From positions 1-25,859 of the IMG/VR virus record IMGVR_UViG_3300008952_000268: DNA of 25,859 bases; one strand, written 5' to 3'. The notes under the pieces were generated by a model. It did no database searches. It was not told where the DNA came from and worked only from the letters and a program-made list of their open reading frames with translations. Both the position numbers and the translations under genes were made by a program. Positions 1 through 23,367 of the stretch are shown here, piece after piece (position 1 is the first letter of the stretch; the number at the start of each line of letters is the position of its first letter). The stretch is from a virus.

Positions 1-3
1 TCG

Positions 4-822: not shown

Positions 823-833
823 CAGGGTTCACC

Positions 834-7284: not shown

Positions 7285-7287
7285 ACG

Positions 7288-8729: not shown

Positions 8730-9064
8730 CAGCCGACCTTCTCTAGTGCGTCATCGAGCGCTTCTTCGACGCCTTCCTCGACGGGTCCACCTGCGTGCGC
8801 TGCCATGCTGGCCAGCTTCGCCTCGATTTCGTTGACGATGAAAACGGCAAGCCGAGTTTGCTCCGCGACCCGATGCGCGTCTCCGGCCTCCGATAACTGT
8901 GTTTGCTCTTCGAGCGACAGCCGATAAAACTCGTGGAACGGTGGCGTCCCCGCTCTCAGCCATAGCCGATAGGTGTCACGCGCTAGCGTCTTGAGCTGTG
9001 CGGATTGCTCGGAATCCTTCGGCTCCAGCTTCGAAAGCCCGATCATGTTCAAAACGTTGTTCAT
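8729..9064 (-). CDS. Small tail gene in assembly-chaperone position
   Basis: A 111-aa protein that is mainly helical and ends in an acidic Glu/Asp-rich tail (VEEGVEEALDDALEKVG). I chose the ATG at 9064 because it overlaps the TGA of the tail tube gene as ATGA. The longer frame starting at 9151 runs through that gene and adds an unlikely N-terminus. Position directly after the putative tail tube gene and before the coiled-coil protein is where tail assembly chaperones (lambda gpG/T-like) are found. Size and acidity suit a chaperone. I saw no clear slippery heptamer or overlapping extended frame that would give a gpGT-type frameshift product, so the role is only positional. Confidence 0.65.
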   Translation of the reverse strand: MNNVLNMIGLSKLEPKDSEQSAQLKTLARDTYRLWLRAGTPPFHEFYRLSLEEQTQLSEAGDAHRVAEQTRLAVFIVNEIEAKLASMAAHAGGPVEEGVEEALDDALEKVG

Positions 9065-10242: not shown

Positions 10243-10670
10243 GCGTTGCCTCGATTGCCGGGGACAAAGTCATTGAAGTCCGGCCGATCGAAGCGCGGCC
10301 GAACCGTGCCGCCTGTCGGGTTCTCGTCGCTCGGTGTGAGCTCCGATGATGTCTTAGCACCGAGCCGACGACGTAAGCCCCTCAGCGTACCCTTGCGCCA
10401 ATCCTCGAGCCGCTGGTCGTCGTCCGGGTTTGCGGTCGAGTGCCACGTTCGCAGTGTCAGAACGACACCCTGGACAGCGACTGCAACATGTTCTTTCCGT
10501 GTCTCGTCGTAAGCGAATCCGAGCTCCGACAGAAACCAGCCTTCGACGTCGTCAGCGGCATAACCGAGAACCGTCGTATCGACGGTCGACAGGTTGTCAT
10601 CGTGCTGCGTGAGCTGCACAAGCGTCGTATCGTCGCGGTATCGTTCGGTAACTCGGTCAGAAAGAGCCAT
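10224..10670 (-). CDS. Head-tail adaptor, Mu gp36/DUF1320-like
   Basis: A 148-aa protein. It opens like DUF1320/gp36 adaptors, with a short helix at VTERYRDDTTLVQLTQHD followed by a Thr/Asp-rich loop. A helix ending VEGWFLSELGFAY comes next, then a helical bundle (VAVAVQGVVLTLRTWHS) and a charged helix (DDQRLEDWRKGTLRGLRRRLG). The last 40 residues are polar and probably disordered. Such adaptors sit under the portal and join the head to the tail-completion ring. The ATG shares its A with the preceding stop (TAATG), indicating coupling to the jelly-roll protein. The assignment rests on this helical layout and on the gene's place before the gpG-like gene, without a decisive residue motif. Confidence 0.65.
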   Translation of the reverse strand: MALSDRVTERYRDDTTLVQLTQHDDNLSTVDTTVLGYAADDVEGWFLSELGFAYDETRKEHVAVAVQGVVLTLRTWHSTANPDDDQRLEDWRKGTLRGLRRRLGAKTSSELTPSDENPTGGTVRPRFDRPDFNDFVPGNRGNAWPNRD

Positions 10671-11998
10671 TACGGTGTACCCGTTGGATCGGACCAGGTT
10701 TCAGCGGCGCCGAGATGCGGAAAGAAGAAACCTTTCTTTTTGAACAGGAACGTTTGAAGCATTCCTGCGTCGGTCGATGTGTCCGCACATGTCGCCTCGT
10801 CGTCCTGCACAAAAGCATTCGAGCCGCCGAGGATAGCCCACCAGGAGCCATCGAACGGGTGGAACTCCTGCATGCACAAGTCATCGATGTAGACCGAGCC
10901 GCCAGCCAGGGACGCGGACGCTATCTTTAGCTTGAGCTCGCCAGAGGTGCGGAAGTTATCGAACCAGTTCTTCGTGCCGCCTGCGGTCTGCGAACCCGAG
11001 CCGAATATTACCGTCGTCCATGTGTCATCTGTCAGGCTGGTAAGTGTCACCGCGTGCGACTGGTCACCGAGCGTTATCGTAAGAGTCCCGCCAGATAGAA
11101 CGGCTGGAACGTAAACGCGCAGAGAAAGAAAGACCGGCGTATCCGAGCGGAAGCTAATTCCGCGATCGATCAAATCCTGCTCGATCGTCACGTCTCCGCC
11201 AGTCGTGAACTCGAGCCGGTTGCTGGATGCTGCGCCGAAGTAGGTACGGTACGGCGCTGGGGACGTCGAGCCGATGGCCGTGTTCGACGCCAACGAGCCG
11301 CTCAAAAACGTCCACCCAGTGAGATCCGTCCCACTGGTCCCTTCGTCGAAAGATGGGTTCTCGATTAGCTGCGACGTCGACAGGCCGGATACCGCTGACA
11401 GCGTCGTACTACTACCGGAGCCGATGCGGTTGATGTCGTCCCGTTCCGCATCTTGTCCGACGATTTCGAATAGCTCTTCATGGATCGTCGAACCTGAGCC
11501 GCCGTCCTGAATGCATCGGATCGTCTTAGTCTCTGCATGGCTGTTCTCGATCACGTCCCCATTCGGCATGACATGGAACTTGTAGACGACGCCATTGCCA
11601 CCTCCAGCGATCGCGCCGGGATCATTGTGCGTAAATCCGCGAGATCGAACCGTCTGTGTTCGATCGATGAAATCGTCGTACATCCTCCGCAGGATCGTGT
11701 CGACGTCCGTTTCTACAAGGTTCAAATATCGAGCGTATTCGACGATGGCCTGGTCGAAGACGTTCGAGAATTCTTCCTCGGCACCTGCGAGGAGACTACG
11801 AAGCCCTTCAAAGCCTGCTTCGATTCCTACGCGGTTCGTGAACTCATCATGGATCTGCGTACGGAAATCATGCTCCAGGCTACTCGTGGAGCCGGTGAAG
11901 TGCTCACCGCCTGTATCGGTCAAAAAGTCCTGATACTGCTTCCACGCATAAACGACACGGTCAATGATGTCTCTGACGTCGTCTTCGGCAATGGCCAT
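10670..11998 (-). CDS. Virion protein with helical base and carbohydrate-binding-like jelly roll
   Basis: A 442-aa protein in two parts. Residues 1 to about 120 are charged and helical (VRDIIDRVVYAWKQYQDFL, then several Asp/Glu helices). Residues about 212-375 look like a CBM4/9-type jelly roll. This part opens with the signature pattern LIENPSFDEGTSGTDLTGW, continues with strand after strand (PVFLSLRVYVPAVLSGGTLT, TWTTVIFGSG) and ends with VYIDDLCMQEF. Jelly rolls that open with 'N-x-S/G-F-E/D ... W' commonly bind sugars. The gene stands between the capsid block and the connector genes, so this may be a head-fiber or neck-fiber protein presenting a lectin-like domain. The ATG at 11998 has only a weak SD. 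Ligand and virion location are inferred. Confidence 0.65.
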   Translation of the reverse strand: MAIAEDDVRDIIDRVVYAWKQYQDFLTDTGGEHFTGSTSSLEHDFRTQIHDEFTNRVGIEAGFEGLRSLLAGAEEEFSNVFDQAIVEYARYLNLVETDVDTILRRMYDDFIDRTQTVRSRGFTHNDPGAIAGGGNGVVYKFHVMPNGDVIENSHAETKTIRCIQDGGSGSTIHEELFEIVGQDAERDDINRIGSGSSTTLSAVSGLSTSQLIENPSFDEGTSGTDLTGWTFLSGSLASNTAIGSTSPAPYRTYFGAASSNRLEFTTGGDVTIEQDLIDRGISFRSDTPVFLSLRVYVPAVLSGGTLTITLGDQSHAVTLTSLTDDTWTTVIFGSGSQTAGGTKNWFDNFRTSGELKLKIASASLAGGSVYIDDLCMQEFHPFDGSWWAILGGSNAFVQDDEATCADTSTDAGMLQTFLFKKKGFFFPHLGAAETWSDPTGTP

Positions 11999-12001
11999 GG
12001 T

Positions 12002-12655
12002 TTACTTGTATCTCGGGGGAAGCCAAACGGCGTGTTGTTCGGAGAACTCGAACTCGTCCACCGTCTGTTTGAGAATACCCGGCTCAAGGTCCGCGATCGT
12101 CGGCGGCCGATCACCTTCAATCGACCGATAGTCCATGTCGATCGGGATGCGCGGATCGCCACGAGGTAGAAGCACCGCGAACATCGAGACCGGAACGCAG
12201 CGCTCGTCGAGCTCGATTTTGCGTGACCCACCCAGCGGCGGCCGACCTCGGCTTCGCCATGGGATCGTCTCGCCGTACTCGCGCTGCTTGTTCGCGAGCT
12301 CCACACGCACCACATGCCGATGAAGCTCTGCCAGCGCTTGCTCGATCTGCGCAAACGTTAGATGGCAATAGTGGCCAGGCTTGTCGACGCTGGTACGCAG
12401 GCGCTTTTTGTCCAGGCGTTCGAGCGGGTTCGACTTGTGGACGAAGGTTAGCGGCCCAACGATACGCGATGCGCTCGGCACAAAGTGCCATGGGGAATCT
12501 GCTTCGTCGGGTAGCTTAGGGGTCTCGATGTCGAAACCGAGCAGACCGGCGAACCATTCGCGGGTCCGTTTGTACTCTTCGCGATAGATCGATTTCGGGG
12601 TCGAAGGCTCGGACGTTACTGCCCTTGAGCTCTTCCGTGCTGTTACCTGAGACAT
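12002..12655 (-). CDS. Hypothetical protein after the capsid gene
   Basis: A 217-aa soluble, basic protein with no family I recognise. The first 20 residues are Ser/Thr/Lys-rich and probably disordered. The remainder mixes helices (IYREEYKRTREWFAGLLGFD and FAQIEQALAELHRHVVRVEL) with Pro-containing loops. No membrane segment or catalytic motif stands out. The start at 12655 has a strong Shine-Dalgarno, TAGGAGA, seven to eight bases upstream. That SD can pair with CTCCT a few bases earlier to form a small hairpin, which might lower translation relative to the capsid protein. Position between capsid and connector genes suggests a head-completion or minor capsid role. Confidence 0.7.
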   Translation of the reverse strand: MSQVTARKSSRAVTSEPSTPKSIYREEYKRTREWFAGLLGFDIETPKLPDEADSPWHFVPSASRIVGPLTFVHKSNPLERLDKKRLRTSVDKPGHYCHLTFAQIEQALAELHRHVVRVELANKQREYGETIPWRSRGRPPLGGSRKIELDERCVPVSMFAVLLPRGDPRIPIDMDYRSIEGDRPPTIADLEPGILKQTVDEFEFSEQHAVWLPPRYK

Positions 12656-12662
12656 TTACCGT

Positions 12663-12680
12663 CTCCTATTGTGAAAGGAG
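12663..12680 (-). promoter_or_regulatory. SD-sequestering mini-hairpin before the 217-aa gene
   Basis: On the minus strand CTCCT is followed by an 8-base loop and AGGAG. The second arm is exactly the Shine-Dalgarno of the 217-aa gene, with its ATG seven bases downstream. The stem is only 5 bp, so any effect would be mild. It lies directly after the larger capsid stem-loop, so the two may act together to reduce expression of the downstream gene. Confidence 0.35.
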
Positions 12681-12681
12681 T

Positions 12682-12711
12682 AGCCAGGGGACATCACCGG
12701 GTCCCCTGGCT
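12682..12711 (-). terminator. Strong stem-loop after the capsid gene (terminator-like, no U tract)
   Basis: An 11-bp perfect stem (AGCCAGGGGAC pairing with its complement) closes an 8-base loop, 15 bases beyond the capsid stop. It is GC-rich and would be very stable. No run of T follows on the minus strand, so it is not a classical intrinsic terminator. It may be a partial terminator or a 3' barrier that protects capsid mRNA. Confidence 0.6.
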
Positions 12712-12725
12712 GAGACATGGAAGGA

Positions 12726-13700
12726 TTAGGAATTCACGTTCTGGCAGAACGAATATGGAACATTCGCACCGATACCAACGCGCATCTCGCCCTGAAGCGA
12801 GTGCTGGCCGATGTCGCGTGCGGTGTCCGAATTATTGTCGTCGGCTCGTACCGTCGAGAACGGCGTGCGCTCCTGAACGAGCATCGCAGGCTTGCCGCTC
12901 TTGAGCGCTACAAAAGCCTTGCTGTCATCGATTAGCGTATTGAACTCCATGTCGGGGTTCTTGCCGCTGAGCTGGAGAACGTTCGATTTGCCGCCAGCCG
13001 AGCCGTCAATCTGCGTGTTGATGAATGCGGATTCCCAGACAGCGCGATCGAGTTCGTTTGTAAGAAGGATACACTGCGCCGCCTTGATCTTGGCTCCCGA
13101 GTGAAGCTTCTTTCCTTCGGTGTCCTGGAATTCGGTGAACACCTGAAGCGCACTATAGAACCTGGTGATCGCCAATGCGTCCGTCGTCGGTGTGGCACCC
13201 GCGACGCTGTTACCACCCGAGCGGCCGAAGCGTGTCGATGTGATGACCAGCGCCGAACCGTCCGCTGCATTCGGGATCGACTGGAGCAGGTCCGCATCCG
13301 TCGTTCCGTTGATGACCTGGAAGACCAGCTCTTCGATGATCTGCGCCGCTCGCGAGCCGATATCCTCGGCATGGTTGAGCATCGCGTTTGTCTGGTCGTC
13401 GGCCTCGTCCCACTTCGACCACGGGATGCGCGTCGAGTAGATGTAGTTCTCGACCGTGTACTGTACGGACGTGTACGACCCGACCGAGATCGGCGTGTCA
13501 TACGGTTGATACTTGAGCGCCGGAACGCTCTCGAAATAAACGTACTTCGACTCGCGGTCAGGAGCCGACGTGACGAAATCTGTAAACTTCGCGAGCATTT
13601 CTCGCGATGCTTCGTACTCGACGTCGTAGGTGTCGAGCATAGAAGACTGAAGAGGTGCCGTATTGAGCGAGGCACCAGCGCCAATTGGTTGACCAGGCAT
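12726..13700 (-). CDS. Major capsid protein, Mu gpT-like
   Basis: A 324-aa protein that builds the icosahedral shell. It matches the pattern of Mu-like major head subunits (gpT family). An N-terminal helix (YEASREMLAKFTDFVTSAP) is followed by an aromatic stretch (SKYVYFESVPALKYQPY). Then comes the strand/helix core YTVENYIYSTRIPWSKWDEA, a long helix (AAQIIEELVFQVINGTT) and a C-terminal beta part (MRVGIGANVPYSF). Fold class would be HK97. The start is certain in practice: GGAGGCATAG lies directly before the ATG at 13700. It follows the protease/scaffold and decoration genes, the standard order for capsid operons, and is followed by a strong stem-loop. Family is judged by eye, but the role is well supported by context. 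Confidence 0.85.
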   Translation of the reverse strand: MPGQPIGAGASLNTAPLQSSMLDTYDVEYEASREMLAKFTDFVTSAPDRESKYVYFESVPALKYQPYDTPISVGSYTSVQYTVENYIYSTRIPWSKWDEADDQTNAMLNHAEDIGSRAAQIIEELVFQVINGTTDADLLQSIPNAADGSALVITSTRFGRSGGNSVAGATPTTDALAITRFYSALQVFTEFQDTEGKKLHSGAKIKAAQCILLTNELDRAVWESAFINTQIDGSAGGKSNVLQLSGKNPDMEFNTLIDDSKAFVALKSGKPAMLVQERTPFSTVRADDNNSDTARDIGQHSLQGEMRVGIGANVPYSFCQNVNS

Positions 13701-13710
13701 CTATGCCTCC

Positions 13711-14172
13711 TTAGCTCAGGGGATCCATGAGATTGTCGATTCCGTTTTTGAGTGCTACATCGCACGTCGTTCCGGAATACCACTTCGTGACCACCCCGAC
13801 GCGGTTGCCAGAATCAACGGCGGTGAGGGTTAGCGTCTGATCGTCGGAAGCCCAAACGGCGTCGCCGACGTGCGTCTCGGCTGAAACACCGGTAACAGCG
13901 ACGCTACGAATCGTCCGGCCGCCAACGTCGACCTTACAGGTAACGGTGTTACCCGTGTTCCCGGTAACAGAGTCGCCGCTAGTGTCGCTAACGATAGCGA
14001 CGCCAATGAAGACATCATCGGCTACGTCGGTCCCGGCGAGAATGAGTTCACCGGCCGAGTTGTCAAGAGATACGAGGGCGCCATCGAAAACCTCTACGGT
14101 GTCAGAGACGATCACTTCCATGATGTCGCTGGTCGCGAGATAGGTCCAATCGGATCGTGCGGAAAGTGCCAT
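13711..14172 (-). CDS. Head decoration/stabilisation protein
   Basis: A 153-aa beta-rich protein lying between the protease/scaffold and major capsid genes, where lambda gpD-like and other capsid cement proteins are encoded. Features are short strands joined by Gly/Asp/Thr turns: FDGALVSLDNSAGELIL, then DDVFIGVAIVSDTSGDS. It ends with GDAVWASDDQTLTLT and NRVGVVTKWYSGTTCDVAL. The segment 'GDAVWASDD...RVGVV' is typical of phage capsid cement proteins. An AAAGGAGG Shine-Dalgarno eight bases before the ATG predicts strong translation, fitting a protein needed in hundreds of copies. No signal peptide or helix-rich part is present. A minor tail protein is the alternative, but position argues against it. 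Confidence 0.8.
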   Translation of the reverse strand: MALSARSDWTYLATSDIMEVIVSDTVEVFDGALVSLDNSAGELILAGTDVADDVFIGVAIVSDTSGDSVTGNTGNTVTCKVDVGGRTIRSVAVTGVSAETHVGDAVWASDDQTLTLTAVDSGNRVGVVTKWYSGTTCDVALKNGIDNLMDPLS

Positions 14173-14175
14173 CGC

Positions 14176-14928
14176 TTACGCCTCCTTTCTCGTGAGGTGG
14201 CGGGCGACGTACTTAGCCGCCGTCGTGTTTTTCATGCGCTCCTTGGTCTGATCGCTGAGCGCTTCGTACTCCTGAAACAATCGAATGACCTCGGCCTGGT
14301 CGCCTTCTTCGGCGAACTCTGCGATGTCTTCGGGGAGATCGTTCATCGCAGTTCCGGGTCCGTCTTCGAATTCCGCGAGCGTTTCGGCTGGCTTCATGCG
14401 GCCACCTTCACGAATCGAACTAGCGAAGGTCTGCGCCGCTGATTTGCGGTCCTTCGCGTTCTTCAGCAGGCTTGAGAGATTCGATCGAGCGTTAGCCGTG
14501 ATCTCGTAACCTTCGGAATCGAGCTCGTCTAACGTCGAATCGCAGAACTCTGCGACCTCGTCGGCCTCGTCGCGTGCATTAAGCTTGTCCTCGAGCACCG
14601 TCAAGCGACCGACAAGCGCAGCCTGCGCATCGTCGTTCGTGTCCCCTTCGGAATCCGAGAACTCAGCGGGTACCGGCTCGTCCTCGGCTGGAGCAGGAGC
14701 GCCGCCGCCCTGCATGGCGTCAATCAGCGGCTGCACGGCCTTCATCCAGTCGAGGATTTGATCGATCTGCGCCTTGAGATCGCCAGCGCCGTCTTGCAGC
14801 TCGGCATCGTCGTCGTCGCCGCCGTCGTCATCATCGGCGAAAACGTTATCGGGTTTCGCCGATGGCTTCTTCGCCGTTGCCTTCTTCGACGACTTTCTAC
14901 GGGTCGTCTTGGTCTTCGGGGTCGCCAT
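14176..14928 (-). CDS. Internal in-frame scaffold product nested in the protease gene
   Basis: An ATG at codon 197 of the protease/scaffold frame is preceded by ACGGAGG with a 5-base gap, better than the SD of the full-length gene. Starting there gives a 250-aa protein with a Lys/Ala-rich N-terminus, an Asp-rich stretch and a helical acidic remainder: a separate scaffold without the protease. The same arrangement is established for lambda C/Nu3 and Mu I/Z, where the free scaffold outnumbers the protease fusion. Here it is inferred from SD strength and from the Pro/Asn junction just before the Met. Alternative: the SD is coincidental and only the fusion is made. Confidence 0.6.
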   Translation of the reverse strand: MATPKTKTTRRKSSKKATAKKPSAKPDNVFADDDDGGDDDDAELQDGAGDLKAQIDQILDWMKAVQPLIDAMQGGGAPAPAEDEPVPAEFSDSEGDTNDDAQAALVGRLTVLEDKLNARDEADEVAEFCDSTLDELDSEGYEITANARSNLSSLLKNAKDRKSAAQTFASSIREGGRMKPAETLAEFEDGPGTAMNDLPEDIAEFAEEGDQAEVIRLFQEYEALSDQTKERMKNTTAAKYVARHLTRKEA

Positions 14929-15516
14929 CGGCACCTCCGTATTTGGGTGGGGGAAATCATGAAAACTGAAGATCGCGACAGAAGAGGTGTCGCACGCAGC
15001 GACCGCCATCAGCGGATCTTCGGACGTCTCAAAAATAGTCGTCTGCCGTTCCTCTCCGATCTCGAGGAGCGGCATCTTGTTGTGGGGTGCCTCGTCGCTC
15101 AGAAGAGCAAGAGACCGGATTTCGGCCTTGCCGTGCGGAATCTCCGGGGATCGAGACGGCAAGAGACCCAAGCGGATGCGGTCATAGATGTCGATCGGAA
15201 CCTTGACCAGATCGGCGAACAAGCAGGCCTTGAGCTCCCCACCGATCGAGATGTCACCGACGCGAGTTAAGCGGACATGCCCAGCGAACTCTGGCGCATC
15301 CGTGTTGCCATGGTGTCCGATGTGTATCGGCGCCATGTAACCCTCGAGGAATAGAGTCTGATGGGTCGCGAGCGCCTCTTCGAGCCAAGCGCGATCAAGC
15401 GCTTCCTCGAGCCCCTTTACCCCTGCCGGAACCTCGGCAAAGATCGGCACATCGTAGATCGTAGCCGTCTCTCCGACGTCAGCGCGGTATCCGGTTCCTA
15501 TCAGATCTCCAGGCAT
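14176..15516 (-). CDS. Capsid maturation protease fused to scaffold (Mu gpI-like)
   Basis: A 446-aa protein. Residues 20-150 resemble Mu gpI-type head maturation proteases: LEGYMAPIHIGHHG carries candidate catalytic His residues (64-69). After a strand segment (KACLFADLVKV) comes RLGLLPSRSPEIPHG with the probable nucleophile Ser (121 or 123). Residues 197-250 are Lys/Ala-rich, then very acidic (FADDDDGGDDDDAEL). The rest is helical with a Glu/Asp-rich C-terminus typical of scaffolds, which fill the procapsid and are cleaved away. I chose the ATG at 15516. The open frame continues to 15924, but that part is low-quality sequence antisense to the HTH gene. The SD before 15516 is weak, so the exact start is uncertain. 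Confidence 0.8.
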   Translation of the reverse strand: MPGDLIGTGYRADVGETATIYDVPIFAEVPAGVKGLEEALDRAWLEEALATHQTLFLEGYMAPIHIGHHGNTDAPEFAGHVRLTRVGDISIGGELKACLFADLVKVPIDIYDRIRLGLLPSRSPEIPHGKAEIRSLALLSDEAPHNKMPLLEIGEERQTTIFETSEDPLMAVAACDTSSVAIFSFHDFPHPNTEVPMATPKTKTTRRKSSKKATAKKPSAKPDNVFADDDDGGDDDDAELQDGAGDLKAQIDQILDWMKAVQPLIDAMQGGGAPAPAEDEPVPAEFSDSEGDTNDDAQAALVGRLTVLEDKLNARDEADEVAEFCDSTLDELDSEGYEITANARSNLSSLLKNAKDRKSAAQTFASSIREGGRMKPAETLAEFEDGPGTAMNDLPEDIAEFAEEGDQAEVIRLFQEYEALSDQTKERMKNTTAAKYVARHLTRKEA

Positions 15517-15694
15517 AGAACCATCTACCGGGAACCGGTTGTACACGTTTTGTATGGTCGATGTCCATTTCGTGCATGTCAAGGAGCATCCTACGTTGTA
15601 TCGTGCATTCGTGTTGATCGGCGCTGCGCCTGATCTCAACTCGGGTCCCGGCTTGTACACACCTGCGGCGCCGATCCTTTTGACCTGGGAACCC

Positions 15695-16252
15695 ATGGCC
15701 ATGCACAGAACAGACCCCGACCGCATGTTCGAGCGTCCCTTGGCTCGACCCCGCAGGACCACCGCGCCGCAGCGCATCCAGATCACCGATCGCCAGTTAG
15801 CAGAGAAGCTCGGAGTCCCGAAGGACGTTATCAAGACGTTCAAAAAGCACGGAGCAGCGCATGAGCCGACGCCAGGGGAACCGCTCTGCCTCGGCCTGAG
15901 CGGCATGGAGCTCGCTGCGTTCATGGCGCTGGGAAAGCTGCTCGAAAAAGGCTACGTGACCAAACAGAAAGCTCGGCGCTTCTTCGGCGCGTGCATGCTC
16001 GCGCTCGCCACCGACCACCGTCACAAAGTGCTACTACAGGTCACCGATGCGAACGACGCGCGCGAATGCTCGCTGATCCAGGACAACGCGGCGAGCGACG
16101 GACCCAGCTTGATCGCCGTACCCGAGGAGCAGGCGCCTTATACGACGATCTACAATCTGTCGATCTTGAAGAACTTGGTGCGTGTCGCTCTGACCCAAGA
16201 GCCGCTAAAGCTGCCAGAGCTCGGTGATGTGGAATGCGTTCCCCATGCTTAG
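15695..16252 (+). CDS. HTH protein, possibly MerR-like regulator, of the plus-strand cassette
   Basis: A 185-aa protein. Residues about 30-50 form a likely helix-turn-helix (DRQLAEKLGVPKDVIKTFKK). A loop follows, then a second helical part (GMELAAFMALGKLLEKGYVT) which echoes the MerR layout of HTH, wing and an L-x-x-I-type helix ahead of a 'GY/GF' turn. The rest is mixed and unrecognised. It probably binds DNA, and candidate targets are the two dyad operators in this cassette. The ATG at 15695 has GGGA shortly before it. ATG 15701 and an upstream TTG at 15596 with AAGGAG are alternatives. Its stop overlaps the lipase start, so the two are co-translated. Regulator function is inferred; the C-terminal half could bind a ligand. 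Confidence 0.6.
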   Translation: MAMHRTDPDRMFERPLARPRRTTAPQRIQITDRQLAEKLGVPKDVIKTFKKHGAAHEPTPGEPLCLGLSGMELAAFMALGKLLEKGYVTKQKARRFFGACMLALATDHRHKVLLQVTDANDARECSLIQDNAASDGPSLIAVPEEQAPYTTIYNLSILKNLVRVALTQEPLKLPELGDVECVPHA

Positions 16253-16988
16253 CGACCACGAAGCCGCGCAGCTCTCCGCGGTCTGCTACCTTGAGCCGGG
16301 AGATTCGCAGGATGCGGCATTCCGCCTCGGGTGGGATTGCCTGCCGATCATCGAAGGAGACACCGAAGCGTTTATCTTCGAGCGTGATGGCGAGACCGTT
16401 ATCGGCTTTCGAGGAACGTCATCCATTGATGACACGATTACCGATCTGCGGCTGAGAAAGACACGCGCAGAGACGACCATCGATCCCGGCGCCGAGGTAC
16501 ATCGGGGGTTCTCCGAGTACGTCTCGAAAGTGTTCTCACGAGTGTTCGACGCCTGCCGATCCCCTGGCAATCGCCGACTCTACGTCGTCGGACATTCGCT
16601 CGGAGGTGCCGCGGCGCAGATCCTCGCGTTCCGGCTGGCCATGCTCGGGTCGGTCGTCGCACGGGTGGTGACGTTCGGCTCCCCGCGGGTCGGGAATAAA
16701 ACGTTCGCGCAGGAATACAACCGGCTGAACGAGCTCGACGAACGTACCAGGCGCTATCGTCGGGTACTCGATCCGGTCCCACACCTTCCCCCTCGGCGCT
16801 GGGGATACCGGCACACCGCAGGAGAGCGCTACATCGACCGGAACGGAAAGATCCACAAGCAGATCGGATGGTGGTCTGCCATGTGGGATAAGGCCTGCGC
16901 GCTGACGATACGGCGCAAATGGGATGGCAAGCCGGACCCGATCGCGGCGCACGGGGTCGACGGCTACATCGCGGCGCTGAAGCCATGA
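16245..16988 (+). CDS. Class-3 lipase (alpha/beta hydrolase)
   Basis: A 247-aa protein with the full set of Lipase_3 (PF01764-type) landmarks. An oxyanion-hole strand reads VIGFRGTSS (53-60). The nucleophile elbow GHSLGGA holds Ser118, after the strand RLYVVGHSL. VTFGSPRVGNK follows, and a catalytic Asp lies in LDPVPHLPP (Asp176). A candidate catalytic His is in AAHGVDGY (His236). Such enzymes hydrolyse acylglycerol or other ester lipids, so a target in the host envelope or lysis debris is plausible. No signal peptide or membrane segment is visible, so export would need lysis or virion incorporation. I chose ATG 16245, with an 8-base overlap with the upstream stop. GTG 16224 and ATG 16227 are possible. 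The 71-aa gene follows by ATGA overlap. Confidence 0.85.
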   Translation: MLSDHEAAQLSAVCYLEPGDSQDAAFRLGWDCLPIIEGDTEAFIFERDGETVIGFRGTSSIDDTITDLRLRKTRAETTIDPGAEVHRGFSEYVSKVFSRVFDACRSPGNRRLYVVGHSLGGAAAQILAFRLAMLGSVVARVVTFGSPRVGNKTFAQEYNRLNELDERTRRYRRVLDPVPHLPPRRWGYRHTAGERYIDRNGKIHKQIGWWSAMWDKACALTIRRKWDGKPDPIAAHGVDGYIAALKP

Positions 16989-17200
16989 ACGAGCTCCCCG
17001 CATGCCTCGACCATATCCGGCAGTCGATCGAGGAGATCAAGAAGCACACGGATGACCCGGCTTCGGCGCGCGAGTTAGAGCGCATTTTGTGGGAGTCGAT
17101 TCTGGAGCTCGCTGCCAAGCTCAGCCCTGTCCCATGGTCGAGCTTGGCAAAGGAAGCGCTGAAAACGCGCGAGATCAAATATCCGAAATGGACGGATTAG
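16985..17200 (+). CDS. Small helical protein coupled to the lipase gene
   Basis: A 71-aa protein of unknown function. Almost the whole length is predicted helical (SIEEIKKHTDDPASARELER, then SILELAAKLSPVPWSSLAKE). It has no membrane segment, signal peptide or recognised motif. Its ATG overlaps the lipase stop (ATGA), so it is surely translated together with the lipase. That coupling invites guesses of a lipase partner, stabiliser or immunity-type factor, none of which the sequence proves. It ends tail to tail with the RHH gene: the two stop codons overlap by two bases, leaving no room for a dedicated terminator between them. Confidence 0.65.
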   Translation: MNELPACLDHIRQSIEEIKKHTDDPASARELERILWESILELAAKLSPVPWSSLAKEALKTREIKYPKWTD

Positions 17201-17388
17201 AGGCTTCCGCGCCGTGCGTATCGGCGTCGCAAAATCTCGGTAAGCTTCTCTGAGATCGCGCCATGCGCGCGCTCGCCGATCTCCTCGAGGAATGCCGCGT
17301 AGACGTCCGCGTCGATGTAAGCTCGGATCATTTTGCGGCCTTTTGGTGGTCGACCTGGACCGCGTTTCGGTTCGGTTTTCTCGGTCAT
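17197..17388 (-). CDS. Small AT-hook plus ribbon-helix-helix DNA-binding protein
   Basis: A 63-aa protein. Residues 8-19 (KRGPGRPPKGRK) hold the Gly-Arg-Pro core of an AT-hook with flanking basic residues, which inserts into the minor groove of AT-rich DNA. Residues 19-60 have ribbon-helix-helix layout: a strand (MIRAYIDADV), helix A (YAAFLEEIGE) and helix B (ISEKLTEILRRRYARR). RHH proteins act as dimers that read palindromic operators. It lies at the end of the small minus-strand unit behind promoter copy A, which contains a 10-bp inverted repeat, so autoregulation is likely. ATG overlaps the TGA of the gene before (ATGA), with GGAG eight bases upstream. DNA binding is well supported; the operator is inferred. 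Confidence 0.75.
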   Translation of the reverse strand: MTEKTEPKRGPGRPPKGRKMIRAYIDADVYAAFLEEIGERAHGAISEKLTEILRRRYARRGSL

Positions 17389-17567
17389 TGGATCGGCTCC
17401 AGCGTCGCGCCAGCGACCGTGTCGCCGTCCGGGTTGATCAGCGAGCCGTCCTTGGTCCGGACCCAGTGCTCGCCGTCGTCGTCACGGTAAAGCCACGGTT
17501 GCGAGTCGCTAACCCGCTCGACGAGGTAGGTCTGCTCGGGGGTGTAAATGCGGTGGGTGGTCGTCAT
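17385..17567 (-). CDS. Small acidic protein upstream of the RHH gene
   Basis: A 60-aa protein of unknown function with strands separated by Asp/Gly turns (YRDDDGEHWV, KDGSLINPDGD), so a small beta domain is likely. I chose the ATG at 17567 over the longer in-frame ATG at 17606. The region between them is a leader related to the leader of the 56-aa unit, where the matching ATG is followed at once by TAA. The SD is weak (GTGGAA). If the 17606 start is used, the message would be nearly leaderless and the protein 73 aa. It is driven by promoter copy A and its stop overlaps the RHH start. Regulatory partner of the RHH protein is a guess. Confidence 0.55.
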   Translation of the reverse strand: MTTTHRIYTPEQTYLVERVSDSQPWLYRDDDGEHWVRTKDGSLINPDGDTVAGATLEPIQ

Positions 17568-17613
17568 GGGTAGAGATTCCACGGTGGTGGTTTGCGTTGC
17601 TCTCATGTAGATA

Positions 17614-17641
17614 ATTATGCACGATTACCCACTCGAGTCAA
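17614..17641 (-). promoter_or_regulatory. Promoter copy A, sigma70-like
   Basis: On the minus strand -35 TTGACT (17641-17636) and -10 CATAAT (17619-17614) are separated by 16 bp, both close to consensus. An AT-rich stretch including TTTTTTG lies upstream, possibly an UP-like element. The transcript would begin near 17607 and carry the 60-aa and RHH genes. The promoter sits inside the 60-bp direct repeat. Confidence 0.75.
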
Positions 17642-17653
17642 CAGTAATCGAGC
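17619..17653. promoter_or_regulatory. Dyad operator over promoter A
   Basis: Arms GCACGATTAC and GTAATCGAGC (9 of 10 bases complementary) are separated by 15 bases. The dyad covers the -35 box, the spacer and the edge of the -10 box, so a bound dimer would block RNA polymerase. Arm-centre spacing of 25 bp puts the two half-sites on roughly the same DNA face. Likely ligands are the RHH/AT-hook protein or the HTH protein of the cassette. Confidence 0.65.
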
Positions 17654-17678
17654 ACAAAAAAGAATTATTTCAGGACAC

Positions 17679-17703
17679 AAAAAAACCCCCCTTTCGGGGG
17701 GTT
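17679..17703 (-). terminator. Intrinsic terminator of the 56-aa unit
   Basis: Read on the minus strand, an 8-bp stem (AACCCCCC/GGGGGGTT) with a GAAA loop is followed by a run of seven T. This is a textbook rho-independent terminator. It lies 22 bases past the stop of the 56-aa ORF and just upstream of promoter copy A, so it separates the two small units. Confidence 0.92.
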
Positions 17704-17724
17704 GTGGTTCGTGGTGGGCTTCCT

Positions 17725-17895
17725 TTACTTCGATTCCTGCCGAGCTGCGTAGCGAGCGGCCGATTCGCCGATAAGTGCATCGCGATCCCAGATAGAGACG
17801 ATCTCCCACTCGTGGCCGTCGCGGTAATCTTGAGCGTCGGTGAGCTCGTCAAAAGTGAAGGTCTCGTTCGTGGTTTCGTTCTTTACGAGCAACAT
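17725..17895 (-). CDS. 56-aa acidic small protein with its own promoter and terminator
   Basis: A 56-aa protein (MLLVKNETTNETFTFDEL at the N-terminus) too short for usual gene calling, yet strongly supported. The signals are AAAGGAG eight bases before the ATG, a promoter-operator copy about 40 bases upstream and an intrinsic terminator 22 bases after the stop. The protein is acidic with one Trp-containing strand (HEWEIVSIWDRDAL) and a helical Ala-rich end (ESAARYAARQESK), with no membrane segment or known motif. The independent transcription unit resembles a moron gene or a small host-takeover or anti-defence protein. That is inference from architecture, since the sequence gives no function. 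Confidence 0.75.
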   Translation of the reverse strand: MLLVKNETTNETFTFDELTDAQDYRDGHEWEIVSIWDRDALIGESAARYAARQESK

Positions 17896-17941
17896 GTTCT
17901 CGGCTCCTTTGTGGTTTGGTTGTCCGTTGCTTACATGATTA

Positions 17942-17969
17942 ATTATGCACGATTACCCACTCGCGTCAA
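17942..17969 (-). promoter_or_regulatory. Promoter copy B, sigma70-like
   Basis: On the minus strand -35 TTGACG (17969-17964) and -10 CATAAT (17947-17942) lie 16 bp apart. Predicted initiation near 17935 gives a leader of about 40 bases. The leader opens with ATGTAA, a start-stop pair, before AAAGGAG and the 56-aa ORF. It differs from copy A only at the last base of the -35 box. Confidence 0.75.
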
Positions 17970-17981
17970 CAGTAATCGAGC
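17947..17981. promoter_or_regulatory. Dyad operator over promoter B
   Basis: The arms GCACGATTAC and GTAATCGAGC with a 15-base spacer are identical to the copy A operator. The same regulator should therefore control both small units together. Confidence 0.65.
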
Positions 17982-18055
17982 ACAAAAAAGAATTATTTCG
18001 GCGCAGCACAAACCGCCCGCGGAGACGGGTTCGGACCCCCGATCGACCCTTGGCC

Positions 18056-19006
18056 TTAATAGACGCCGGGGGTCGCCTCTTTCCTGAACCCCTCGTCCGG
18101 CTCGAATGCGCGAGCCTGCGCAATCTTGACCGGCTTGACGTGCCCCTCGGGAGTAATTAGCCCCTTGTCCCGCAACTCCCGCTTGTCGACCAGGCGCACC
18201 GTGCACCGGCAGTTGTAGCCGTTCGGCGGTCGGATCGTCTCCCAAATGGGATGCGTCACCGCGGCTGTGACCCCGTCGATCGTCGCGTGCGTATCGCGTA
18301 CCGCCGAGTCAGTTACCGCCATGTACTCGAATGCGCCGATCACCTGCTGCACGTCGGGGTCCTTCGCCTGTTCGAACCGGCCGTCGGTGTACGCCGTGTT
18401 CATGTTCGTACGGAACACCGTCTCCGCGTAGCTCCTGCTGAACCCTTGCATCTCCATCATCGCGTCCTCGAACTGCGTCGAGGTCAAGCCACGGGAGATG
18501 ACTCGCTGAAGCGCTTCGCGTGTGATGCCGATTCTCTCGAGTGCGCTTCGGGTGTGCCGTGCAACCACCCGTTCGCCGCGCTGCGCCATGGAAAAAACGC
18601 GGTCAGAGCGTTCATAAAGTCGCGCTACGGCGCGCCATAGTGGTTCGCCGTCCATCGGTCGCGCGAGTTCCGGGGTACGGCGCGCGAGGATTTCGGCCGC
18701 TGAGGTGAAGCCCTGACCGCTACCTGGTGCAAGGGTCTCGCCGGCGCTGAACAAGACCTGGTGAACGTCTGCTGGTTGCCTGCTCTCCAGCGCTTTCGCC
18801 TCGAGTACGAGACGCCGGCGACCGTGCAAATCAGCCAGAGCCATCGAGCGCCACATAGCACGATGGAGCCGCTGGAACGATGGCCCCACCGGTCGACCGC
18901 TAAGAATGGCTCGCGTGTATTGCAGGATCGATTCCTCGAATTCCTTCGAGCTCGAATCGATCAGATCTTGGAATTCGTCCAGCGGTGATTTAACGGAACG
19001 AACCAC
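18056..19006 (-). CDS. MuF-type head morphogenesis protein (Mu gp30/SPP1 gp7-like)
   Basis: A 316-aa minor head protein, mostly helical for the first 200 residues. The MuF signature follows: an Ala/Tyr helix (SRSYAETVFRTNMNTAYTDG), then VTDSAVRDTHATIDGV, and PPNGYNCRCTVRLVDKREL holding the conserved Cys pair. MuF proteins bind the portal, enter the head in few copies and help head assembly and genome ejection. I chose GTG 19006 because GGGAGG lies five bases before it. The longer frame starts with GTG at 19030 without such an SD. It overlaps the portal stop by 17 bases. No toxin or enzyme domain is fused to its C-terminus, as happens in some MuF proteins. Confidence 0.85.
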   Translation of the reverse strand: MVRSVKSPLDEFQDLIDSSSKEFEESILQYTRAILSGRPVGPSFQRLHRAMWRSMALADLHGRRRLVLEAKALESRQPADVHQVLFSAGETLAPGSGQGFTSAAEILARRTPELARPMDGEPLWRAVARLYERSDRVFSMAQRGERVVARHTRSALERIGITREALQRVISRGLTSTQFEDAMMEMQGFSRSYAETVFRTNMNTAYTDGRFEQAKDPDVQQVIGAFEYMAVTDSAVRDTHATIDGVTAAVTHPIWETIRPPNGYNCRCTVRLVDKRELRDKGLITPEGHVKPVKIAQARAFEPDEGFRKEATPGVY

Positions 19007-20321
19007 CGAACCCTCCCGATGCGCTGGCACCCTGGAGCGTGTCCAATCCGGCCGACCCTTCGATCACTTCATCGCCGTCCTCTGGCATTGTCCAGCCGAG
19101 CTTTTCGTAGACTTCCGATTTCTTCAACGGAATCCCAGCACGTAACGCGACCTCGGCATTCTGCGCGTTCGCCGACGGGTCATCGATCTCCTTTGACGTC
19201 GTAACGAACTTTGGCATGCGCGGTCGGTTCGGGAATATCCGCTGTAGCTTGTCGCGGTTCCAATCCCAAAGGAGTCGAATGAGTTTGCCGCCCATTTTCT
19301 CATCCTTCAAATCGCGATCGGCCTGGATCAGACTTTGCGCTACCGATTGCTCGACCTCGGCACGTGCGAGCGATCCGACGCCTTCCTGGCCACCGAGCGG
19401 CAGCACCGAGCCGTAGAGATATCCGCGCAGCGCATTGTCACAGTAGTCGAGCCAACCCATCGCGATCGCGTTACCGTCCGATCCCATCGCGTGAAAGTTG
19501 ACCTTGTCGAGTGACGAGTGCGCAAAGACATGCTCTCCTTTGTGCTTTTTCGCCTGCGCGATGTACTCGTCCATCACGTCTTGAGCGGACCGGCCATCAC
19601 CACCTGCCGAGGTACGTTCATCGATCTCGATGTCGATCTGCCCCATGGCCCATCGCTCGAGACCCGATAGGACAAGCGGGAGCGTCTCCATTTTCGCCCA
19701 CCACATGAAATAAGCGGAACGAATCGCTGGCCATCCGTAACCCAGCGTTCTCTCCTCGTCACACCAAACAATCGAGACGAGCGGCGAGTTAGACGTCAGC
19801 CGGGTTTTCTTGCCGCGCCCCGTCGCGCTCTTGAGATACCAGCCCCAGGCGCCATCCTCCTTGAGCTTCGCAACGCGGTCCTTGTCGATCTCCTTGATGC
19901 GCGTGATGACGCGCCAGGGTTGCGCCGGGATTTCGTCGATGCCACCGAGCTGCAAATGCCGCACAGCGTTCTCGGGAAACCCGTAGTATCGACCGCGGAA
20001 ATACCCATGCGCCGCAAGGGTCTGCGCCGCCTTGAAGGAGTCGATCTCTCCGAGCGCATCCTGCATCCAGACGGCTAGATCCTTCTCTTCGGCCGTCGCG
20101 TTTTTCGCCGGAACGACCATGAAATCATCGCCGGCAATCTCGCTAGAGCGGATGTCAATCGCCTGAGCGGCGACAGCATCTTGGCGCAGCTTGTCCCAAA
20201 TCTCGGGTTCCTTCTGCTGCGCGAGATCGGTGTCGACAATCTCACGGAACCCGCGGTAGATCGATTGTAGCGCTTGGGGGTAGAGCGATCGTGCGTAGCT
20301 GACGCTGATGGGATAGGTCAC
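18990..20321 (-). CDS. Portal protein, Mu gp29/DUF935-like
   Basis: A 443-aa protein that forms the dodecameric portal ring through which DNA enters and leaves the head. DUF935-type features are the N-terminal helical part with AAQAIDIRSSEIAGDDFMVV, a mid-protein segment (TLGYGWPAIRSAYFMWWAKM) that precedes the wing/stem region, and ARAEVEQSVAQSLIQADRDL. The C-terminal motif GIPLKKSEVYEKLGWTMPED is shared with gp29-like portals. The last 25 residues are Gly/Ser-rich and flexible. The start is a GTG that overlaps the terminase TGA as GTGA, and the gene is followed by the MuF gene, the canonical order. Length fits the family (about 400-520 residues). Portal identity is strong; the gp29-like subfamily is moderately sure. 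Confidence 0.88.
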   Translation of the reverse strand: MTYPISVSYARSLYPQALQSIYRGFREIVDTDLAQQKEPEIWDKLRQDAVAAQAIDIRSSEIAGDDFMVVPAKNATAEEKDLAVWMQDALGEIDSFKAAQTLAAHGYFRGRYYGFPENAVRHLQLGGIDEIPAQPWRVITRIKEIDKDRVAKLKEDGAWGWYLKSATGRGKKTRLTSNSPLVSIVWCDEERTLGYGWPAIRSAYFMWWAKMETLPLVLSGLERWAMGQIDIEIDERTSAGGDGRSAQDVMDEYIAQAKKHKGEHVFAHSSLDKVNFHAMGSDGNAIAMGWLDYCDNALRGYLYGSVLPLGGQEGVGSLARAEVEQSVAQSLIQADRDLKDEKMGGKLIRLLWDWNRDKLQRIFPNRPRMPKFVTTSKEIDDPSANAQNAEVALRAGIPLKKSEVYEKLGWTMPEDGDEVIEGSAGLDTLQGASASGGFGGSFR

Positions 20322-21790
20322 GATAAGAACCCGAATCGGTGTCTGGAATTACCAGTAGAGTCTTTCGCGCGATTGAACAGAGACGGCGAGCGCCGATCGC
20401 TGGCGCCGAACTCAAGTCTAACGCGCGCTCTGCGTCCGTACCAAGCCATAACCAGCGCATCGCCGCGGTCAGGGCTCGATATCCCACGCTTCCGCATGTC
20501 CTCCTTGCGCTCGATCTGAAAGGTCCCGTCATACTTCGGGATCTTCTTGATGCTGGTTAGCTGCGCTTTCTGCTTATCGTCGTCGAGTAGCTTGAGCTCC
20601 TCTTTTCGTAGAGCTTCTCGGAGCCACCACCACGACTCCTCGCGGCGATTACGGAACATCCCCTCATCGTAGGGTTTGGCGCCACCCTGGAACGGATAAA
20701 CCTTGTAGCCGTGGCGGGTCAGATAGTCCGTTACACCGCCACCCAGGCCGACATCATCGACGACAATCAGACCTTTTTGTTTGTCCCATCCGAGTGCATG
20801 GAAATAGCGTTCCGCCTCGTCGACGACGCGATCGACCGGGAATCCCATGAACGCCTCCATGGAGATCTGATTCGCGCCGTCAAGCGCTGTGAAGACCGTC
20901 TCATCTCCGCCCATGCGTGCGACGTCGATAGCCATGACTCGGCGATTGTCTGTCGTGAACTTCGGGAGTGCGACAGAACGCCGCACCCACTCGAGCGAAA
21001 TCAGGGTGTCTTCGCCTTCGGCTGGGAAGCGACCACGTACCAGCGCCTGGAACATAGGGGAATCTTCGCCCCATTCATCCCTGGCCTCTGCGATCCATTC
21101 GGCCGTGATCGCGCCGGGTACGGGATACTCGCCGTTCGGGTCGCGACCCCGCGTTATGTTCGGATGGTTGTAGCCGTCGATGTAAACGGTCGTCCAAAGA
21201 TCGCTCGCGGCTGCTGCGGGGAACGGCTCTTCGGAACCTTCGGCCGCCTCGGGATTACCGATCGCCAGGATCTTGACGCGACCACCCGACGCGATACGAC
21301 GAACGCCTTCCCAGATCGGTGGGTCGACCCCGGCCGCCTCGTCAATGACGATTAGCTGATGCCGTTCGTGGTGCCCGATCATTTTGTTCGGCTCGGTCGG
21401 GGACAGACCGATCATTTTGTGATTCGGGGAAATCCGCCACTCGCAGGCACGCGGTGGCATCTCGCCGTCGAGCTCTATACGGCACTGCTCGCGAGCCATG
21501 CGCATCTCGGCCCATAACAGCTCGTCCACCTGCGACCACGTCGGCGCCGTAGTGATGACACGCGACGGCCGATTGAACTGCATGAAATGTATCGCGTAGC
21601 GTGCTGCAAAATGGGTTTTACCCTGCGCATGCGCTGACGGAACGACGACGCGATCGGAGACCTGTAGCGCGTGCATGGCAGCCATGATGTCCGGGGTAAA
21701 CGTGGTACCCTCGACGTCTTTCCAGAATGTCCAGGGTTCGGCCTTCCAGCGTTTGAGCCTCCTACTCTGTTTCGCTGTCAGCGTCGGCAT
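20318..21790 (-). CDS. terL: Terminase large subunit (packaging ATPase/nuclease)
   Basis: A 490-aa motor protein. The ATPase domain has a Walker A-like PSAHAQGKTH (51-60), a Walker B segment RHQLIVIDEAAGVD (143-156) with the catalytic Glu, and the coupling segment KILAIGNP. The RNase H-like nuclease domain keeps its acidic set: VMAIDVARMGGDET (Asp289), GLIVVDDVGLG (Asp345/346) and SSPDRGDALVMAWYG (Asp441, Asp444). ATP hydrolysis drives genome translocation and the nuclease cuts concatemers. I start it at ATG 21790, which overlaps the TerS gene by 29 bases. A longer open frame to 22045 would be antisense-like, low-complexity sequence inside TerS and is rejected. Length and motif spacing are normal for the family. 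Confidence 0.95.
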   Translation of the reverse strand: MPTLTAKQSRRLKRWKAEPWTFWKDVEGTTFTPDIMAAMHALQVSDRVVVPSAHAQGKTHFAARYAIHFMQFNRPSRVITTAPTWSQVDELLWAEMRMAREQCRIELDGEMPPRACEWRISPNHKMIGLSPTEPNKMIGHHERHQLIVIDEAAGVDPPIWEGVRRIASGGRVKILAIGNPEAAEGSEEPFPAAAASDLWTTVYIDGYNHPNITRGRDPNGEYPVPGAITAEWIAEARDEWGEDSPMFQALVRGRFPAEGEDTLISLEWVRRSVALPKFTTDNRRVMAIDVARMGGDETVFTALDGANQISMEAFMGFPVDRVVDEAERYFHALGWDKQKGLIVVDDVGLGGGVTDYLTRHGYKVYPFQGGAKPYDEGMFRNRREESWWWLREALRKEELKLLDDDKQKAQLTSIKKIPKYDGTFQIERKEDMRKRGISSPDRGDALVMAWYGRRARVRLEFGASDRRSPSLFNRAKDSTGNSRHRFGFLS

Positions 21791-22193
21791 CGGCCTGTTC
21801 CAGCATGTCACCGAGCGACAGGTTGCCCGAATGCTCGACCTTGTGAGCGGACTCGAGACCCAGGATTTTGTCGATGCGTTGTTGAGCTCGAACCTTTTCC
21901 ATCGGGGTTGCGGCGGGGTCTCGAACGACGCCCCAGTAGACCTTGAGCGCCTTGCCGCGATGGTCCTCGATGTCCTCTTCGGTGTACTCCCGCAGCATCT
22001 CACGCGCGCGAGACAGATACCGCTCGGCGGTACGGGCAGTGACACCGTATCTCGATATCACCGTTTGCTTTATCTGCGCCTTAAAATAGCCCAGAGCCAA
22101 GAGGTCGGCGACGAGCCGGATGCGCTCGTCCTGCTCCTCTATCGTACAGCGGTCCCCACCGCCGCCTTTCTTTTCGCGCTGTTCATCGCTCAT
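21762..22193 (-). CDS. terS: Terminase small subunit
   Basis: A 143-aa DNA-recognition subunit. Residues 15-70 form an HTH-bearing region (IRLVADLLALGYFKAQIKQT followed by YGVTARTAERYLSRAREML), consistent with binding a packaging site. A helical part (TPMEKVRAQQRIDKILGLES) follows, with an acidic disordered tail (DMLEQADADADSETE) that would contact TerL or the portal. The ATG overlaps the methyltransferase stop by 11 bases and AAGG lies nine bases upstream. TerL begins within its last codons. TerS sequences vary greatly, so the call rests on HTH pattern, size and position before TerL. Confidence 0.82.
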   Translation of the reverse strand: MSDEQREKKGGGGDRCTIEEQDERIRLVADLLALGYFKAQIKQTVISRYGVTARTAERYLSRAREMLREYTEEDIEDHRGKALKVYWGVVRDPAATPMEKVRAQQRIDKILGLESAHKVEHSGNLSLGDMLEQADADADSETE

Positions 22194-23367
22194 GGCGCTC
22201 GGCCTTCTGGCCTGTGAGGTTCTCCCAGCGCTGGACGATGACGTCGCAGTACGCGGGCGATATCTCGACGCCGTAGCAGACTCGGCCGAGTTGTTCGGCT
22301 GCGATGAGGGTGGTGCCGCTGCCGAGGAAGGGGTCGTAGACTATGTCGCCCTTCTCCCCGTGGTTGCGGATGGGCCGGGCCATGCACTCGACGGGCTTCT
22401 GGGTGCTGTGCCCGGTCTCGTTCTTAACGTGCGAGATGTCCCAGACGGTGGACTGCGAGCGGTCGCCGCACCAGCGGGCGGTGGAGCCCTTTCGGACGGC
22501 GTACCAGCATGGCTCGTGCTGCCAGTGGTAGGCACCGCGGGAGATAGCGAACCGAGACTTTCGCCATATGACCTGGTTACGAATCTCGAAGGTGCTGGCT
22601 CTGAGATTGTCGGCGACCTGCCCCGACTCGCACGCATCATGCCACACGTACGATACGTCGCCAGGGAACAGCGCATAGGCTTCTGACCAATCAACCCGGT
22701 CATCGTTCTGCACTGCACCGCGGCGGGGTTCCGACAGCCCAGAATCTACCCGCCACTCGGGATCGTACTCCACCCCGTACGGCGGGTCCGTGACCATGAT
22801 GAACGGCTCGGCCCCGTCGAGCAGACGCGCAACCCCCTCCGCGTCGGTCGAGTCGCCGCACAGAAGCCGATGCGGCCCGAGCGCCCAGATGTCCCCGGGC
22901 TTCGTTACGGGTTCCTCGGGCGGCTCTGGCGCTTCGTCTTCTTCAATCTCCGCTGGCTCGAGAATGCCCGCGTCTTTCGCTAAGTCGTCGAGCATGCCTG
23001 CTAGCGCTTCGTCGCCGGTCTGAACGTCGTCGAGAACGTCCCGCAGAATCGCGGCATCCGCTTCGGCCATCGCGCCGATCGGGTCGTAGGTCGCGAGGAG
23101 CTTATCCGCTTCGGCCTTGGAGACGTCGACAATCAGCGTCGGGATCTCCTGATCGTGGCCGACGTCGCGCCGCAAGTGCCCGTCGATTAGCTCCAGGCCG
23201 TCGTCGGTCTCACGTGCGACAGCAGCGCCAGCGAATCCGACCTCGGCGAGCACGGCGGCCAGCGCGTTCTGCTGCGCCTTGGGGTGTTTGCGCCAGTTAC
23301 GCGGGTTCTCTGCGAGCTCGGCTGCGGGAACCCTTCGGAACTCCTTGATCCTGTCACGGAAAGCCAT
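22183..23367 (-). CDS. ParB-like domain fused to DNA adenine/cytosine-N4 methyltransferase
   Basis: A 394-aa fusion. Residues 10-110 are a ParB/Srx-like domain with LELIDGHLRRDVG, including the GHLR core (63-66). Residues 155-390 are a beta-class amino-methyltransferase: motif IV TDPPYGVEY (DPPY at 194-197) precedes the AdoMet motif DPFLGSGTTLIAAEQLG (345-361), and HSTQKP (320-325) lies before it. The enzyme should transfer methyl from S-adenosylmethionine to adenine N6 or cytosine N4. ParB-methylase fusions are widespread in phages and probably protect DNA from restriction or mark it for packaging. AAGGAGG lies seven bases before the ATG. The stop overlaps TerS by 11 bases. The target site cannot be read from the sequence. 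Confidence 0.93.
   Translation of the reverse strand: MAFRDRIKEFRRVPAAELAENPRNWRKHPKAQQNALAAVLAEVGFAGAAVARETDDGLELIDGHLRRDVGHDQEIPTLIVDVSKAEADKLLATYDPIGAMAEADAAILRDVLDDVQTGDEALAGMLDDLAKDAGILEPAEIEEDEAPEPPEEPVTKPGDIWALGPHRLLCGDSTDAEGVARLLDGAEPFIMVTDPPYGVEYDPEWRVDSGLSEPRRGAVQNDDRVDWSEAYALFPGDVSYVWHDACESGQVADNLRASTFEIRNQVIWRKSRFAISRGAYHWQHEPCWYAVRKGSTARWCGDRSQSTVWDISHVKNETGHSTQKPVECMARPIRNHGEKGDIVYDPFLGSGTTLIAAEQLGRVCYGVEISPAYCDVIVQRWENLTGQKAERHER

Follow-up and report, generated by a model that had tools for sequence, protein, structure and literature searches.

A two-armed accessory cassette with duplicated promoter elements at the MuF-protease junction of a metagenome-derived virus encodes candidate anti-defence proteins

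The virus record IMGVR_UViG_3300008952_000268, from the metagenome-derived virus collection IMG/VR, was analysed over its full 25,859 bases (the window). Its minus strand carries a head module with the gene order terminase, portal, MuF, protease/scaffold-like gene, phrog_1731 structural protein and gpT-like capsid protein. A cassette of ~2.3 kb (about 15695-18028) lies between MuF and the protease/scaffold-like gene, and profile matches on both sides indicate that its flanks belong to one minus-strand head module. The cassette consists of two arms. The plus arm encodes a helix-turn-helix (HTH)-like protein, a class-3 lipase and a 71-aa protein, and the minus arm encodes proteins of 56 and 60 aa and a putative ribbon-helix-helix (RHH) protein. 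The arms converge, with stop codons overlapping at 17197-17200. An initial annotation of this sequence had described the same six open reading frames (ORFs) and their overlapping stops, and both are borne out by the reading frames and by codon usage. It had also placed the cassette genes in opposite orientation, which holds for the plus arm only; the minus arm is co-directional with the late genes. The features of the minus arm, in the order of transcription, are as follows.

18013..18028, minus strand: terminator-like hairpin T1, between MuF and the first promoter (hairpin scan; aligns with T2 in the duplicated unit)
17940..17999, minus strand: promoter unit P1 (60-bp core; -35 TTGACG at 17969-17964, -10 CATAAT at 17947-17942)
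17725..17895, minus strand: 56-aa acidic protein, pI 4.35 (coding potential; ribosome-binding site AAAGGAG)
17684..17703, minus strand: strong intrinsic terminator T2 (8 pairs, run of T)
17612..17671, minus strand: promoter unit P2, the second copy of the core (-35 TTGACT at 17641-17636, -10 CATAAT at 17619-17614)
17385..17567, minus strand: 60-aa acidic protein, pI 4.46 (coding potential 0.379, 0/3000 controls)
17197..17388, minus strand: 63-aa basic protein, pI 10.2, putative RHH repressor (position, charge, sequence pattern)

Two tandem units make up the minus arm, each comprising a terminator, a promoter, a leader and an ORF. P1 and P2 follow the pattern TTGAC(G/T)-16-CATAAT, near 17935 and 17607, and their cores are identical at 59/60 bp. 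A scan for consensus promoters alone stayed within chance (2 found, 1.2 expected). P1 and P2 are raised above this level because both sit in the 59/60 duplicated element, which occurs twice in the window versus 0 expected. The tract upstream of P1 is A+T-rich, and GC content in the window is lowest (0.508) in the half-kilobase containing the promoters. Outside the cores, the upstream terminator stretches and downstream leaders can be aligned only with gaps and many mismatches, suggesting that selection or conversion acts on the core. The 56-aa and 60-aa proteins are weakly similar to each other (0.8% of 500 shuffles reach the score). Thus, the two units may derive from an old duplication of their entire length, in which the promoter was held fixed by selection or conversion.

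P1 contains the inverted repeat TGCTCGATTAC-N15-GTAATCGTGCA at 17982-17946, and P2 carries the identical repeat at 17654-17618. The repeat has 11-base arms (10 pairs) and a 15-base spacer that holds the -35 box, with the right arm occupying the gap between -35 and -10. Markov shuffling of the core reproduced such a repeat in 1.4% of trials (P 0.014). A protein bound at this predicted operator would exclude RNA polymerase. The case for the promoters rests on the duplication, the inverted repeat and the good ribosome-binding site of the 56-aa gene. The minus arm thus has, by sequence, its own promoters and terminators (P1, P2, T1 and T2). In contrast, a scan of the plus arm revealed no convincing promoter and nothing comparable to P1 or P2, so that the earlier assignment of own promoters to both arms stands for the minus arm alone.

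The codon usage of all six ORFs is typical of the structural genes of this phage (wrong-frame controls, P <=0.013 each). For the HTH, 71-aa, 60-aa and 56-aa ORFs, none of 3000 wrong-frame controls matched the coding score. The 63-aa gene overlaps the 60-aa gene by ATGA. An alternative start that would lengthen the 60-aa protein to 73 aa was rejected: the extension lacks a coding signal and would begin approximately at the transcription start. The 56-aa protein matched no family in Pfam, PHROGs, NCBIfam or PADLOC. The HTH, 60-aa and RHH proteins had no credible tblastn match in phages, and the 63-aa protein had none in plasmids. A single-sequence AlphaFold model of the 63-aa protein consisted of one long helix (mean predicted local distance difference test score of 70), too weak for a fold search.

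To place the cassette among known phages, we read a spread of the 323 phage records recovered by MuF similarity and tallied the 19 phages with an interpretable junction. In 14 of these, nothing beyond gpG or one tiny ORF lies between MuF and the protease (Mu, Mushu, Lsp-JY19, Mx4, Ps59, UMP151, Riverbug, RcapMu, RR1-B, YPCBV-1, BR141c, KP12, RcWaterboi and vB_PeaS-P1). The remaining five (JBD5, JBD88a, LPB1, MuM16-1 and HXX_Dennis) carry cargo at the junction, as does the present virus with its six non-structural ORFs. The tally is approximate, as the protease or gpG was labelled by position in some phages and the records are not independent. A large minus-strand ORF of Komp_PAO1_1 was not counted as cargo; it spans the protease and capsid space and is a possible mis-annotation. 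Phages phiFN37, a Helicobacter prophage and a Porphyromonas phage were left outside the tally because their downstream protease was not identifiable. The initial claim that MuF and protease genes normally adjoin agrees with most of the Mu-like phages surveyed, which supports an accessory nature of the cassette.

The acr (anti-CRISPR) genes of Pseudomonas aeruginosa Mu-like phages lie in the plastic region RGP G, which has short accessory ORFs and a low GC content (PMC4378225). As read from the annotated JBD records, RGP G is the MuF/protease junction. In JBD5 the junction contains AcrE1-AcrF3-Acr-wHTH, with an HTH gene last, and in JBD88a it contains AcrF3, small genes and a convergent minus-strand gene. 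The junction of LPB1 holds small genes. Both JBD88a and LPB1 have sense-strand small genes followed by one small opposite-strand gene before the protease, i.e. a two-armed layout. In the anti-CRISPR promoter region of JBD5, a -10-like TAATAT is closely preceded by a perfect inverted repeat (14 bases, spacer of 10 bases). The junction cargo of Shewanella phage MuM16-1 (L044 1682-3371) consists of a regulator and a reverse transcriptase, possibly a defence-type element. Xanthomonas phage HXX_Dennis (L043, L040) has ~12 short minus-strand ORFs in the junction, a candidate source of anti-defence genes.

The sole near relative of the window is the 17,534-base IMG/VR contig IMGVR_UViG_3300007513_001187, which is 99.9% identical to window positions 1-17532. 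Its sequence runs through the plus arm and the RHH gene into the 60-aa gene and stops there, with most of that gene included. Eight differences fall in 118 bases of the 60-aa gene, compared with about seven over all the other 17.5 kb. Five of the eight are synonymous, so that the 60-aa gene looks constrained at the protein level. The clustering suggests that the near relative has another allele of the 60-aa gene, as at a mosaic joint, and points to allele replacement in the minus arm. Searches with the HTH, lipase and RHH proteins matched only this contig. The IMG/VR contigs contained no relatives at the level of MuF or portal, the GTDB contigs gave one remote terminase match (26%) and nothing closer, and neither set yielded a close relative that spans the junction, with or without the cassette. 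The promoter-core patterns were absent from the viral contigs. A terminase scan returned 20 viral loci at 26-34% identity. Those examined (L003, L007 and L015) have head modules built differently, and a portal of the present kind was detected in none; they are therefore uninformative about the junction.

The remaining features of the cassette and its borders are the following.

18056..19030, minus strand: minor head protein MuF, which borders the cassette upstream (Pfam Phage_Mu_F 1.1e-19, phrog_220 1e-28)
16985..17200, plus strand: 71-aa protein, phrog_10733 (unknown function; PHROGs E 1.2e-5)
16224..16988, plus strand: class-3 lipase (Pfam Lipase_3 9e-25; PDB 3ngm 9.9e-17)
15695..16252, plus strand: 185-aa basic protein with an HTH-like N-terminal third (sub-threshold Pfam Phage_CI_repr match, E 0.037)
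14176..15516, minus strand: protease/scaffold-like head gene, downstream border of the cassette (position before the phrog_1731 protein and the gpT-like major capsid protein)

The genes of the plus arm overlap and form an operon. For its first protein, a low-confidence single-sequence AlphaFold model contains two short helices (residues 32-39 and 43-52) and is likewise too weak for a fold search. The lipase has 253 aa when translated from the ATG at 16227, with the ATG at 16245 as an alternative start. It has an intact Lipase_3 domain with the nucleophile elbow GHSLGG at 122 and the Asp and His motifs LDPVPHLP at 181 and AAHGVDGYI at 240, the Asp and His being placed by motif. Its N-terminus is not signal-peptide-like. 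Cell lipids are the probable substrate of the enzyme, which may serve lysis, exclusion or conversion. ORFs antisense to the lipase were considered and rejected as coding, their codon usage being unlike that of the structural genes. Of the labels given initially, that of the lipase is borne out by domain and motifs, and that of the HTH protein has a match below the cut-off. The RHH label agrees with a sequence pattern and lacks a profile match. The protease label did not hold as a family assignment: no hidden Markov model or family match was obtained and the gene is named by its position.

Around the cassette, the portal gene upstream of MuF has a Portal_Mu match of 9.6e-25. The start codon of the protease-like gene is uncertain, its reading frame being open as far as 15924. 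A palindrome, CATGGCCATG, at 15694-15703 contains a start codon on each strand, one opening the HTH gene and the other the possible longer protease frame. On the protease side, a TTGACA box at 15582 is followed 17 bases on by a poor -10; as a suggestion only, it might resume late transcription past the cassette. No Rfam element was found in 15400-18400, and the 25.9-kb fragment has no recognisable gene for integration or lysogeny, which leaves the initially proposed expression from a prophage unsupported. A phrog_498 DNA methyltransferase (22183-23367) lies directly upstream of the terminase, a pairing also seen in terminase relatives, e.g. L002 (methyltransferase 50% identical) and L012. The terminase (20318-22045) is ~30% identical to those of L003, L007 and L015, phages with different-looking head modules. 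Terminase and head module therefore seem separately derived (mosaic).

The locus thus combines a position at a known cargo junction with duplicated promoters, inverted repeats at the -35 boxes, small acidic ORFs and a small basic last gene. Our favoured interpretation, to which we give roughly even chances, is that the cassette is accessory and that its minus arm is an acr-aca-style operon, repressed by the RHH protein, whose 56-aa and 60-aa products block a host defence. These two orphan proteins are good candidates for anti-defence proteins because related phages keep immunity-disabling genes in exactly that junction. On infection, host RNA polymerase would fire from P1 and P2 together, and the 56-aa and 60-aa proteins would be made early and block host defence. 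As the 63-aa RHH-type repressor accumulates, it would bind the inverted repeats of both promoters and close the regulon, a shut-off that would spare the head operon from disturbance by strong transcription. The plus arm, with its HTH protein, cytoplasmic lipase and 71-aa protein, would be an accessory operon in its own right, facing the late genes. Expression of the cassette outside late transcription, as initially proposed, is likely in view of its own promoters, terminators and plausible repressor; for the proposed self-regulation, we infer both the operator and the RHH repressor. The favoured interpretation would assign a specific role, open to testing, to two short orphan proteins, and suggests a rule for searching unlabelled phages: the MuF/G-protease junction with repeated promoters that carry an inverted repeat at -35.

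Several points weigh against the acr-aca-style interpretation. In searches of Pfam, PHROGs, NCBIfam and PADLOC, the cassette proteins matched no Acr, Aca (anti-CRISPR-associated) or other anti-defence family, and profile searches gave no support for an RHH fold of the 63-aa protein. The two-unit structure derives from a single metagenome assembly across a 60-bp repeat, and the predicted operator from one repeat in two related copies. The reading of P1 and P2 as sigma-70 promoters presupposes a host that uses sigma-70.

The cassette could instead be a plain moron, with constitutive small genes, promoter-terminator pairs serving as insulation from the head operon, and a role in lysogenic conversion or superinfection exclusion rather than anti-defence, the lipase being the main effector. 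A promoter, an ORF and a terminator make up the textbook moron (as defined in PMC4378225), the lipase motifs are intact, and small cargo genes whose role is unknown are frequent at the junction. However, the -35 inverted repeat, the duplicated promoter and the DNA-binding-like last gene point to regulation, and no lysogeny gene was recognised on the fragment, leaving this explanation possible but doubtful. The initial annotation had read the locus as a self-regulated moron. The accessory character it proposed is retained, whereas it overlooked the tandem units, the -35 inverted repeat and the acr-aca junction of P. aeruginosa Mu-like phages.

It is quite unlikely that the locus is the phage's own early or regulatory module, e.g. 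an HTH-RHH genetic switch, rather than removable cargo. Two candidate regulators do lie on facing arms, and the 99.9% relative keeps both the plus arm and the RHH gene, as well as the greater part of the 60-aa gene. But the site within the head module is empty in most distant relatives, and the arms converge instead of diverging, so that they lack the common operator region of a CI/Cro switch. We consider it very unlikely that the 60-aa and RHH proteins are a toxin and antitoxin that regulate their own promoter and are maintained for stability, the 56-aa unit being a decayed duplicate. The ATGA overlap of a two-gene operon, the RHH-like second gene and the operator-like repeat would fit such a pair. 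The 60-aa protein, however, has an acidic pI (4.46) and matched no toxin, and the 56-aa gene is not decayed, given its normal coding statistics and good ribosome-binding site.

Among known systems, phage class-3 lipases (phrog_21992; Cylindrospermopsis and Prochlorococcus phages) share the Lipase_3 domain and GHSLGG with the cassette enzyme at about 27-41% identity. In the one neighbourhood looked at, the CrV-01T lipase lies beside a dCTP deaminase, a different setting from that of the cassette. Morons of lambdoid and Mu-like phages resemble the cassette in placing promoter-ORF-terminator between adjacent late genes. The cassette differs from the typical moron by its several genes, two orientations and candidate repressor.

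On present evidence, the minus arm is not an acr-aca operon by membership, as no Acr or Aca similarity was found; it resembles one by anatomy. It shares with the acr-aca operons of JBD5 and JBD88a (RGP G) the junction before the protease gene and the sense-strand small ORFs, with JBD5 promoter inverted repeats and a last gene for a DNA-binding protein (putative in the cassette), and with JBD88a a convergent antisense gene after the small ORFs. Aca repressors bind inverted repeats inside the acr-aca core promoter (PMC9410906), and both cassette copies have a repeat within the core, bracketing the -35. In contrast to the HTH last gene of acr-aca operons, the last gene of the cassette is basic and RHH-like by sequence pattern. 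The cassette further differs from the JBD operons in its two tandem promoter units, the lack of sequence match to any Acr, its large antisense arm with a lipase, and the absence of gpG between MuF and the cassette.

Repeated, near-identical early promoters also mark anti-defence genes in archaeal viruses (PMC11065993). Plasmid p576 encodes an RHH repressor next to a small gene, the two forming one operon; the repressor acts on its own promoter and on several strong promoters for establishment (anti-restriction) (PMC8708921). The clade II establishment regulon of p576/pLS20 and the cassette are alike in having several promoters with matching operators (predicted in the cassette) and an RHH repressor (Reg in the plasmids, putative in the cassette) in a two-gene operon with a small gene. 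The plasmids are Bacillus conjugative elements, and the likeness drawn is one of layout. In its most specific form, which we consider unlikely to hold in full, our proposal is that the minus arm encodes two new anti-defence proteins, of 56 and 60 aa, governed by one RHH repressor through the duplicated promoters, which would make it a phage counterpart of the plasmid establishment regulon. If the repressor is indeed RHH, the transient-expression trick of HTH Aca proteins and of plasmid Reg would span both kinds of mobile element.

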